Positions 24,840 to 31,369 of a stretch of 38,146 nt of DNA are shown one piece after another (the first letter of the stretch is position 1; each line of letters opens with the position of its first letter). The translations under genes and the position numbers were made by a program. Source of the stretch: Rickettsia typhi (GTDB lineage Bacteria; Pseudomonadota; Alphaproteobacteria; Rickettsiales; Deianiraeaceae); contig CAMDBF010000007.1 in NCBI GenBank assembly GCA_945889175.1, forward strand, positions 1 through 38,146, given 5' to 3'. A model generated the notes under the pieces. It ran no database searches and was not told where the DNA came from. It was given only the letters and a program-made list of their open reading frames with translations.

Positions 24840-25679
24840 ATGCAAAATGCAAACATTGACGATTCATCAGTGCATTTACAAAGCTACCCAGACTTAAAAT
24901 ACGAGCCTAATCTTGAAATCATTGCAAAAATGGATTCCGCAAGAGAGCTTTGCAGCCTTGTGTTGTCTTTAAGAAAACAGCATAACTTAAGAACAAGGCT
25001 CCCCCTTGAATATATTAAAGTTTTTGGCTATGAGCTTGGATACTTTGATAACTTTAAGGACATCATTGAAAGCGAGCTTAATGTAAAGCAATTAATTTAT
25101 GTCAACTCAAAGGATGTTAAGCTTAAAACTAGTATAAAGTTAAATTTTAAAAGCATTGGAGTAAAGTTTGGTAGTAAAGTTTCGCAAATTACGGCGGCTG
25201 CAAAGCAGAACATCTTTACCCATCTTGAGGATGGTATTGTTGAAGTTGCAGGTGAAAAGTTAAACCAAGAAGACTTTACTATAATTAACGGACTTGAGGA
25301 TGGTTATGTTGACAAAACAAATGAGGACTGGACTGGCTTTACCGACCCAGTTGACAAGGGTTTTAAAGTTGTTATTTTAAAAATTACATCAAACCCAGAG
25401 CTTGAAAAAGAGGCTATAGCAAGGGACTTTGTAAGAGCCGTGCAGAATGCCCGTAAGTCTTTAAACTTAGATATTACCGCTAAAATTAGCATAGAATACT
25501 CTGTTATAGCAAGTGATACAACCTTTTTGCAAGATGCAATTCAAACTTACTGCAATTATATTAAAGACCAAACTATAGCTCAAAGCCTTGATATTAAGCT
25601 GGAAGATGTTGCAAAAGATAATATTTTTACCCTTGATATTGAAGATGCAAAGATATCTTTTTGCATTAAACAAATTTAA
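24840..25679 (+). CDS. Free-standing C-terminal domain of a type-2 isoleucyl-tRNA synthetase (end of anticodon-binding domain plus DUF5915-like region)
   Basis: 'SVHLQSYPDLKYEPNLEIIAKMDSARELCSLVLSLRKQHNLRTRLPLEYI', 'ELNVKQLIYVNS', 'EKEAIARDFVRAVQNARKSLNLDITAKISIEY' match IleRS C-terminus. No HIGH/KMSKS part; in-frame stop (taa at 24810-24812) just upstream. Confidence 0.78.
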   Translation: MQNANIDDSSVHLQSYPDLKYEPNLEIIAKMDSARELCSLVLSLRKQHNLRTRLPLEYIKVFGYELGYFDNFKDIIESELNVKQLIYVNSKDVKLKTSIKLNFKSIGVKFGSKVSQITAAAKQNIFTHLEDGIVEVAGEKLNQEDFTIINGLEDGYVDKTNEDWTGFTDPVDKGFKVVILKITSNPELEKEAIARDFVRAVQNARKSLNLDITAKISIEYSVIASDTTFLQDAIQTYCNYIKDQTIAQSLDIKLEDVAKDNIFTLDIEDAKISFCIKQI

Positions 25680-28600: not shown

Positions 28601-28829
28601 GACAACTGCAAAACAAAGATTAAAGCCTATACTTGCAACTGCAAGTGTTGCAATTTTTGGATTTGTGCCTGCAGTATTTAATAATGGGATAGGAGCGGAG
28701 GTTCAATTTCCGCTAGCTGTAGTTGTAATTGGTGGTATAATAAGCTGTACTATTTTAACCCTGTTTTTGTTACCAAGTTTATATTGCTTAGTGAATAATT
28801 TTTTTTGTAAAAAAAATGATAAGCGTTAG
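25686..28829 (+). CDS. CzcA/CusA-type heavy-metal efflux RND permease
   Basis: 'MIYRFFAKHKFNVVAVFILLFLFGLHLALNIKIDAIPDITNTQVIINTKTGGLDPEQVERSITYQIETAMFGI'; TM4 'DFGLLVDASIVIIENSIRK'; 'GDFTITSVKPFDISI'; 12-TM architecture; 1047 aa. Confidence 0.92.
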   Translation: MIYRFFAKHKFNVVAVFILLFLFGLHLALNIKIDAIPDITNTQVIINTKTGGLDPEQVERSITYQIETAMFGIKGVKDIRSISKYGLSQVIVVFNESTNLYWARAQVSEKLSSIQANLSGYTPQLGAITTGLGEVLLYRVYFEKNDKNQTPNTEQDLIKLRTIQDYTIVPYLKQIQGVADVDSNGGYKKEIHININPSNLTKYGLTIQLLLNKLQTIGQNYGGGYIQTKNMQMIVRTTSNILSINDLKNVVVKLSANGHRIKLGDIARVKEEFPQRIGSFLFEGEESVMGIVMMQIGANSKDVLEALNEAINSLKLEEGVRIEPIYTRHFLLNSTIKTVLKNVIEGIAFVIIILFLILKNIRASLIAAIVIPITAVITAIWMSYLNISANLMSLGAVDFGLLVDASIVIIENSIRKITKGQDFKQRLQIVSQALQDVIKPTCIGIFIIIIVYLPILVFDGAEGKTFKPMALTVIFALASSLLTAVFLVPILTAAFVKQGHSESVKTSDTFVAKYYTILLNKFITRPILIIVPSLVFMVFCFVLFLRLPSEFIPSLNEGDFTITSVKPFDISINKSIEEQKQIEQIAMGFKGVGHVFSRIGSSESGLDPMGVNVGDMYVVTDKTNVKNIKQRNEALASDIVKALQERFIRHQFTISQPVKMKFNEILEGSRGDLNLKIFGSDLDTLSALTDKIRDIILQTEGSLSAEASELTALTKNKVLEAEILYDKLSLYDIPISDVNLNLQMAMSGIEIGRFYENQIQFPIIIHMGEDIKNDINYIKQIPVSLELGGSIPISAVANFTQKDKVVTIARNFAVRYSALGIVLKDDVDTEGFVKIVNQKIQEQIDLPQGYNIEWSGRFKNAQHAKQKLQLFIPLLLVVIFFILYKTFNSFTSAFIIYLSIPLALCGGVIGLAVTHTPLSISAMIGFIALFGIAVLNGIVLISYVIYDLSSFSTANNLPLKSLKFETVKHITMTTAKQRLKPILATASVAIFGFVPAVFNNGIGAEVQFPLAVVVIGGIISCTILTLFLLPSLYCLVNNFFCKKNDKR

Positions 28830-29976
28830 TCAGGCATTGAAGTTTTTTAAAAATCATAATATTTTTAATGCTTCAAAATTTTTTAAAACGGATGGCAAGA
28901 TATTAATAAATTGCGTTTTGATTTGTATAATTGGACTTGCCGAAATTTATTCCGCTGCCGACAGAACAACTGGCAACATCTTTGGTAAGCAATTATTTGT
29001 ATTTTGTTTTTTTGCTCCAATTTTATTTAGCATTATACCAGCCATAAATCCAAAGTTTATTATTAAGTATTGCTATCTAGGCTATTTTATTGCCCTTGTT
29101 TTACTTGGTCTTGTTCTTGTTGTTGGCGATTATTCTATGGGGGCAAGAAGATGGATTGAATTTGCAGGCTTTAGGCTGCAACCATCGGAGTTTGTAAAGG
29201 TTTTTTTAGTTTTGGCGGTTTCAAGATTTTTGCATTTTAAAAAAGCCGAAAAGATTGGTAGTATCTTTAACTATCCAGTAGTGTTGCTATTTATTTGCAT
29301 ACCTTGTGCAATGATATTTTTACAGCCAGACCTAGGCACTGCCTTAATTATTTTTGCCATAGGTGGATTTTTAATTTTTACATCTGGTTTAAGATATGTT
29401 TATGTTTTAGCTTGCCTTGTTGTAGCCTTGGTTTCGATACCGGTTTTGTGGTCTCACATGCACGAATATCAAAAAGAGAGGGTTAGAATCTTTTTAAACC
29501 CCGACAAAGATCCCCTTGGCTCGGGCTATAATATTATTCAGTCAAAAATAGCAATAGGTTCGGGTGGATTGATTGGGGCTGGTTATACTAATGGTAGTCA
29601 GGTTCAATTAAACTTTTTACCCGAAAGTCATACCGATTTTATATTTACTCACTTTGCTGAAGAGTTTGGTTTTGTGGGCGTTGTTGTACTACTCTGTCTT
29701 TACATTGCTTTGCTTTTTCAAATTTTTAGTGTTTCGGTTAATGCTGATAGCCATTTTATAAGGCTTGCCAGTGCTGGTATAGGTTTTAGCCTTTTTTTAC
29801 ATATGTTTGTCAATATAGGTATGACTACAGGTATATTGCCAGTTGTTGGTAGTCCTTTGCCTTTTATGTCATATGGGGGTAGTTTTTTGCTAAGCAACTT
29901 ACTTAATATTTCTTTAATCATGAACTTTTCACTTAATAGAAGGGTTCAGCTTTCAACATCTTCAAAAATGATTTAA
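28816..29976 (+). CDS. rodA: SEDS-family rod-shape/peptidoglycan glycosyltransferase RodA
   Basis: 'GARRWIEFAGFRLQPSEFVKVFLVLAVSRFL', 'FLQPDLGTALIIFAIGGFLIF', 'FLPESHTDFIFTHFAEEFGFVGVV', 'LPFMSYGGSFLLSNLL'. Overlaps the czcA-like 3' end. Confidence 0.92.
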   Translation: MISVSQALKFFKNHNIFNASKFFKTDGKILINCVLICIIGLAEIYSAADRTTGNIFGKQLFVFCFFAPILFSIIPAINPKFIIKYCYLGYFIALVLLGLVLVVGDYSMGARRWIEFAGFRLQPSEFVKVFLVLAVSRFLHFKKAEKIGSIFNYPVVLLFICIPCAMIFLQPDLGTALIIFAIGGFLIFTSGLRYVYVLACLVVALVSIPVLWSHMHEYQKERVRIFLNPDKDPLGSGYNIIQSKIAIGSGGLIGAGYTNGSQVQLNFLPESHTDFIFTHFAEEFGFVGVVVLLCLYIALLFQIFSVSVNADSHFIRLASAGIGFSLFLHMFVNIGMTTGILPVVGSPLPFMSYGGSFLLSNLLNISLIMNFSLNRRVQLSTSSKMI

Positions 29977-29983
29977 CTTTTTA

Positions 29984-31369
29984 ATGATTTACGACCTAAC
30001 TGCCTACCAATGCCCTATGAACCTTGTAATGGCAAAGCAAACTATTCATAACAATAACGATAAGAGTCCAAGCTTTTTATTATCAAGCGAGCAGGGTGCG
30101 GAAAATATCAAGAACTTTCTTGTTTTTAAAGGTTTTAAGGCTAGCTATAAAATGATTGAAAAACACTTTATCGTGGATGGTAAAATTGCTAAAGTGGATA
30201 GACTGTCAATTTACATTCACTACCCATTTTGTGAGCAAAAATGCCCATATTGCGATTTTAACAGTCATGTAAATAAAAGCGAGGTTGAAAAATCTGTTTT
30301 GTGGCTTGAAGCCTACAAAAAAGAGATGGATTTTTATTTTAACAATATTTTACTGGGTAAAAAATACAAGATTGAAAGTATTTTTTTTGGGGGAGGTACC
30401 CCAAGTTTAATGTCGACAGAGCTTGTAAGTGGAATTATCGATTATATTTCAAAGTATCACGATGTAGATTCTTTGGATTGTGAAATAACACTAGAAACTA
30501 ATCCATCATCATTTGAGGCTTTAAAGTTTAAAGACTTTAAAGCTGCGGGAGTAAGTAGAGTTTCAATTGGTTTGCAGGCGTTAAACGACAAAGACCTTAA
30601 AACTCTTGGCAGAGTACACGACTTAAAGCAGGCTTTAAATGCCGTTAAAACTGCTGGTGAAATTTTTGATAATTATTCAATAGACTTAATCTACGCAAGA
30701 CACGAGCAAGACTTAGCAAGCTGGCAGGCAGAGCTTGAATATGCTTTAAAGCACTTGGTAAAAGACCACATATCTCTTTACGCTTTAACTATTGAAAAGG
30801 GCACGGAGTACTACTCTCTTGCAAAGCGTGGTTTAATTGTTACCCCATCGGAGGACAAAGCTTTTGAATTTTACAAGCTAACAGACGAGATCATAAAGGC
30901 AAATGGTTTTGACAAATATGAAGTGTCAAATTATTGCAAAAATGATAAGTTTTCAAGACACAATATGACCTACTGGCAGTGCGGCGATTGGATTGGTATT
31001 GGGGCTGGGGCGTTTTCTCGTTATACAATTGATGCAAAAAGACATTCCGCCAATAACTATCACGAGCCGCTAAAGTGGTTTAACTCCGTTATGCAAAATG
31101 GTAACGCCCTGCAGATAAAAGAGTCAGTTGATGCTAAGGACATAGCCTACGAGATGTTAATGATGGGACTTAGACTTAAAGATGGTATTGACATAAAAGC
31201 CTTTAATGAAAAATTTGATTTAAACCTTGAAGAATACCTAAACAAATCAAAGCTAAATGCAATGATAAATGAGGGCTTGGTAATTTACAATCAAGGCTTG
31301 CAAATTAAAACAACAGAGCAGGGCTTGTATGTGTTAAACTCCATTATCAATTCTATTTGTTATTGCTAA
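29984..31369 (+). CDS. hemW: HemW-like radical SAM protein with N-terminal TusA-like domain
   Basis: Radical SAM 'YIHYPFCEQKCPYCDFNSH', 'FFGGGTPSLM', 'RVSIGLQALNDKDLKTLGRVH', 'HNMTYWQCGDWIGIGAGAFSR'. First ~70 aa 'MIYDLTAYQCPMNLVMAKQTI...GAENIKNFLVFKGFKASYKMIEKHFIVDGKI' match a TusA pattern. Confidence 0.88.
   Translation: MIYDLTAYQCPMNLVMAKQTIHNNNDKSPSFLLSSEQGAENIKNFLVFKGFKASYKMIEKHFIVDGKIAKVDRLSIYIHYPFCEQKCPYCDFNSHVNKSEVEKSVLWLEAYKKEMDFYFNNILLGKKYKIESIFFGGGTPSLMSTELVSGIIDYISKYHDVDSLDCEITLETNPSSFEALKFKDFKAAGVSRVSIGLQALNDKDLKTLGRVHDLKQALNAVKTAGEIFDNYSIDLIYARHEQDLASWQAELEYALKHLVKDHISLYALTIEKGTEYYSLAKRGLIVTPSEDKAFEFYKLTDEIIKANGFDKYEVSNYCKNDKFSRHNMTYWQCGDWIGIGAGAFSRYTIDAKRHSANNYHEPLKWFNSVMQNGNALQIKESVDAKDIAYEMLMMGLRLKDGIDIKAFNEKFDLNLEEYLNKSKLNAMINEGLVIYNQGLQIKTTEQGLYVLNSIINSICYC

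Follow-up and report, generated by a model that had tools for sequence, protein, structure and literature searches.

The window, a stretch of 38,146 nucleotides from the draft genome of an uncultured Rickettsiales-type bacterium (G000; 54 contigs, 86% complete), carries on its forward strand an open reading frame in which a TusA-like domain is followed by HemW (29984..31369, +). The frame runs from ATG to TAA, encodes 461 amino acids and, by reading of the ORFs and frames, contains no internal stop codons and is preceded by an in-frame stop at 29969, in agreement with the coordinates given in a preliminary description of this DNA. The rodA gene (28816..29976, +) ends 7 nt before the ATG of the fusion. 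The cusA-rodA pair that precedes the fusion here is also present in the sister species G001, the one further member of the genus available for comparison, where neither tusA nor hemW is found behind it.

The same window contains, at 24840-25679 (+), a detached C-terminal part of isoleucyl-tRNA synthetase (IleS), comprising the rest of the anticodon-binding domain and DUF5915. The body of this enzyme is encoded elsewhere in G000 (C3; L080 1818-5321, minus strand) and stops inside the anticodon-binding domain: on the Pfam Anticodon_1 profile, the body ends after position 87 and the window piece covers positions 95-145. Among the family's 17 other genomes, 14 have a match to the C-terminal piece, each time in a frame no longer than 345 amino acids (that of G001 being also cut by contig ends), and in other families of the order the matching frames span about 780-1300 amino acids, with one exception of 289 amino acids (G031). 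In both G000 and G001 (L081 306-3887), Pfam identified two inserted GNAT acetyltransferase domains in the IleS body, and in that of G006 (L099 266-4147) GNAT-like insertions, one apparently in the same place, were recognized by eye together with a further insertion. In this family, isoleucyl-tRNA synthetase is divided between two genes, and its body contains the inserted GNAT domains.

The two halves of the fusion protein

The C-terminal half (residues 70-461; 30191..31366, +) is a complete HemW with radical SAM (PF04055) and HemN_C (PF06969) domains, which matches the TIGR00539 profile from residue 75 onwards with 282.3 bits, above the curated cut-off of 205.4, and as proposed in the preliminary description, about 70 additional residues stand in front of it. 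The radical-SAM cluster motif CX3CX2C (Cys83, Cys87 and Cys90, followed by D91 and F92; 30230..30253, +) is invariant in 17 aligned HemW proteins and is followed by phenylalanine, unlike the CX3CX2CXC motif of HemN. Likewise, H326, N327, Y330 and W331 of the HNxxYW motif (HNMTYW, residues 326-331; 30959..30976, +), described in the HemW literature as the heme-binding motif of this protein, are invariant in 17 aligned rows. The protein therefore resembles HemW in length, motifs, domain composition and profile score, and differs from it in the additional N-terminal residues, which form a separate domain; none of the other HemW proteins that were compared has a counterpart of residues 1-68.

This N-terminal domain (residues 1-68; 29984..30187, +) was assigned to the TusA/SirA family on the basis of profile, structural and homology comparisons. 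When the N-terminal piece of 75 amino acids was compared with the Pfam TusA profile (PF01206), the search suggested in the preliminary description, a match was obtained (E=1.6e-5, 25.1 bits) that falls below the curated cut-off of 28.6, as does the match within the whole fusion protein (E=1.9e-4), whereas standalone relatives in G006 and G009 pass the cut-off with 34.9 and 31.0 bits. An AlphaFold2 model of the domain, built with 16 aligned sequences, has a mean pLDDT of 91.9 and the beta-alpha-beta-alpha-beta-beta order of the TusA fold. The best PDB matches of this model in a Foldseek search were the SirA-like protein 3hz7 (E=3e-4), TsuB/YeeD (8k1r, 8j4c), 3lvj (TM 0.73) and 1dcj, the latter two being E. 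coli TusA from the complex with IscS and E. coli YhhP/TusA, respectively. A profile built from the TusA alignment matched 1dcj and 3lvj with E=1e-15; because ordinary TusA rows are also part of the profile, this value speaks more for the alignment than for the family membership of the window protein on its own. Residues 1-68 are 49%, 28% and 32% identical to standalone homologues in the genus and family, and over residues 3-52 the identity to the standalone gene of the sister species reaches 64%, which is beyond chance. Together, the profile, the predicted fold and the homologues bear out the earlier proposal of a TusA-like domain fused to the N-terminus of HemW. There is almost no linker between the two parts; a structure prediction of the whole fusion left the N-terminal domain unfolded and is uninformative as to the orientation of the domains, since the alignment used contained no TusA rows.

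Active-site and docking residues of the TusA-like domain

In the alignment with E. coli TusA, the CPMN motif of the fused domain (residues 10-13; 30011..30022, +) occupies the CPxP position, with C10 and P11 equivalent to Cys19 and Pro20, a cysteine-proline pair that is invariant in the 16 aligned TusA rows. The second proline of CPxP (Pro22) is replaced by N13, and Asp45 and Asp51 by S35 and N41, respectively; the asparagine at position 41 is found in all four proteins of the divergent CPMN group, to which the fused domain belongs. Both aspartates have been reported to be conserved in all TusA homologues above approximately 24% identity, and the D51A substitution in E. coli TusA has a modest effect (PMC2854127). 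The phenylalanines that contact IscS in E. coli, Phe55 and Phe58 (PMC2854127), are matched in the alignment by F45 and F48. With the TusA/SirA family (PF01206) and E. coli TusA (1dcj, 3lvj), the fused domain has in common the fold, the order of strands and helices, the Cys-Pro pair at the start of helix 1 and the two IscS-contacting phenylalanines; it departs from them in the three replacements described above, the lack of a glycine before the motif, the fusion to HemW and the sub-threshold Pfam score.

In the aligned residues, the sulfur-carrying cysteine and parts of a docking face are retained and the helper residues are not. In the preliminary description, the replacement of CPxP by CPMN was recognized correctly and the domain was offered as a possible non-catalytic adaptor; the latter part is not established, given that the cysteine and the proline after it are both present, yet the positions of Asp45 and Asp51 are changed. 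Both "non-catalytic" and "active carrier" would be labels that exceed the evidence, and the chemistry of the domain is uncertain.

Another group of TusA-like proteins that lack the second proline of CPxP is found in small-genome Alphaproteobacteria (L068, L069 and L071). These proteins retain the Cys-Pro pair and lie on the side of the tree that also holds the CPMN proteins, but they are standalone, have CPMT or CPIT motifs and are just 17-29% identical.

Origin and distribution of the fusion

In the sister species G001, the CPMN TusA-like protein is encoded by a standalone ORF behind trpC (L037 17959-18204), and hemW (L037 5962-7131) is located 11 kb away on the opposite strand. In the phylogenetic trees, the HemW half of the fusion is the sister of G001 HemW (support 100/96) and the TusA half is the sister of the G001 TusA-like protein (support 99/99). 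Given that the genes are separate in G001 and that each half groups with its G001 counterpart, two native genes appear to have been joined in the lineage of the window. The CPMN protein was detected by profile search in 4 of the 344 genomes of the order and is fused in G000 alone; in genus g6, which belongs to the same family, two genomes encode the standalone protein next to folE, which, like trpC, is an unrelated neighbor. An amidohydrolase-like ORF that immediately precedes trpC and the TusA-like gene in G001 is headed by a second copy of approximately the first 25 residues of trpC (L037 15985-17133).

A survey of HemW proteins, which had been called for in the preliminary description, revealed HemW in 77 of 90 relatives and an N-terminal TusA domain in the HemW frame in none but G000. 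TusA itself is rare: any match to it was found in 6 of the 90 genomes, ordinary TusA being also infrequent in the order, and a TusA match is lacking in 71 of the 77 genomes with HemW. A search for a separate tusA in the 86% complete genome G000 identified no second copy, so that the fusion is the sole TusA match. The dN/dS values relative to G001, estimated by three methods with dS near saturation, are about 0.31-0.55 for the TusA half and about 0.2-0.3 for the HemW half; with constraint of this kind, the TusA half does not give the impression of a degenerating remnant.

Several candidate links were considered and rejected. An apparent remnant of HemW behind tusA in G001, suggested by a tblastn match of the fusion extending to residue 90, is an extension by chance that runs across two stop codons. 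Long-frame TusA matches in other Alphaproteobacteria revealed no comparable fusion in the 8 loci inspected: in 6 of them the motif lies at the end of a long frame with no HemW behind it, and in the remaining loci, L091 and L094, the TusA motif pattern was not found. The mnmA gene adjoins hemW in G001; in G000, it is located on another contig among unrelated genes.

The junction itself bears on how the fusion arose and on how many proteins it yields. The native CPMN-type tusA-like gene and the native hemW would have become adjacent behind rodA, after which loss of the stop codon between them would have joined the frames, a single step that would suffice if the genes abutted. Codon 71 is a GTG (30194..30196, +), located where some orthologous HemW proteins start, and might be either an internal start or a former start codon. 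The codon before it is AAA, one base away from TAA. This last feature and the draft state of the assembly are compatible with a sequencing or assembly error, that is, with tusA and hemW abutting as separate genes and the stop between them being misread. The join is seen in one draft genome only, where it could have arisen through faulty assembly or base calling; nevertheless, with the frame open throughout, both halves derived from the same lineage and similar in base composition, and the flanking genes intact, we regard an error as very unlikely.

Alternatively, two proteins might be made from the one frame, the full-length TusA-HemW and a normal HemW initiated at GTG71, which would begin with VDRLS-IYIHYPF, spaced as the start MDNIA-LYIHWPF of the relative L023. 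The only purine-rich stretch upstream of GTG71 is too distant for a usual ribosome-binding site, and the codon may be a mere remnant of the former start. A Shine-Dalgarno signal is seen in few genes of the window, so its absence at GTG71 is no counter-argument and the sequence cannot settle whether one or two proteins are made. On balance, the production of two proteins seems to us quite unlikely.

Possible function of the joined domains

The fusion is probably best explained as a lineage-specific read-through of two working domains, each of which keeps its own job. The product would be a small domain of the persulfide-carrier type, with Cys10, tethered to a complete HemW and made as one protein; the HemW part would work as a heme chaperone of the radical-SAM type, and the TusA-like part as a cysteine-based sulfur carrier able to dock on IscS, the two contact phenylalanines of E. 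coli TusA being matched by F45 and F48. Cys10 would carry the sulfur, and the tether would have no special purpose. The genes for IscS and MnmA are both present in G000.

The preliminary description went further and suggested a role of the fused domain in sulfur or Fe-S delivery; the fusion to HemW stands, and the delivery link is neither supported nor refuted by a single genome in a genus where G001 keeps the genes apart and in a family where the standalone relatives have unrelated neighbors. Under such a scheme, the TusA-like domain would dock on IscS and supply the [4Fe-4S] cluster of HemW, or a partner of HemW, with sulfur, either directly or by way of Fe-S assembly nearby. The retained Cys10 and Pro11, the two phenylalanines matching the IscS contacts of E. 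coli TusA (PMC2854127), the presence of IscS in G000 and the absence of any other TusA there are compatible with this role, as is the decrease of Fe-S cluster levels upon loss of TusA in E. coli (PMC11302051). The effect in E. coli, however, is attributed in that study largely to the translation of Fur and iron levels rather than to direct delivery (PMC11302051), most HemW-bearing relatives show no TusA match, and the fused domain has lost the equivalents of Asp45 and Asp51, so we consider a delivery adaptor rather unlikely. It also seems unlikely that the fusion is a built-in module that docks on IscS and passes sulfur to mature or regulate HemW, in which case the relay of sulfur and the trafficking of heme would be in direct physical contact, a connection kept as a fusion in the lineage.

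There is precedent for a TusA-family domain joined to another protein. In Corynebacterium, the single-chain YeeE-YeeD (TsuA-TsuB) proteins combine such a domain with a working partner (PMC11073785); there, however, the partner is a thiosulfate transporter, the linker is at least 40 residues long, and the TusA domain is C-terminal and has the standard CPxP motif. Our literature search identified no paper in which TusA and HemW are named together, nor any that mentions HemW in combination with "N-terminal extension" and "fusion protein".

What is new in the fusion described here is the arrangement of the domains, seen in one draft genome; both families are already known, and the fusion may be merely two adjoining genes run together. 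A single case in a small, rearranged genome is weak evidence, and more genomes of the genus with the same fusion would make it strong. Gene fusions often mark proteins that work together, and if this fusion is functional, it would suggest an action of TusA-type sulfur carriers on or near HemW; how that protein handles heme and its own Fe-S cluster is poorly understood.
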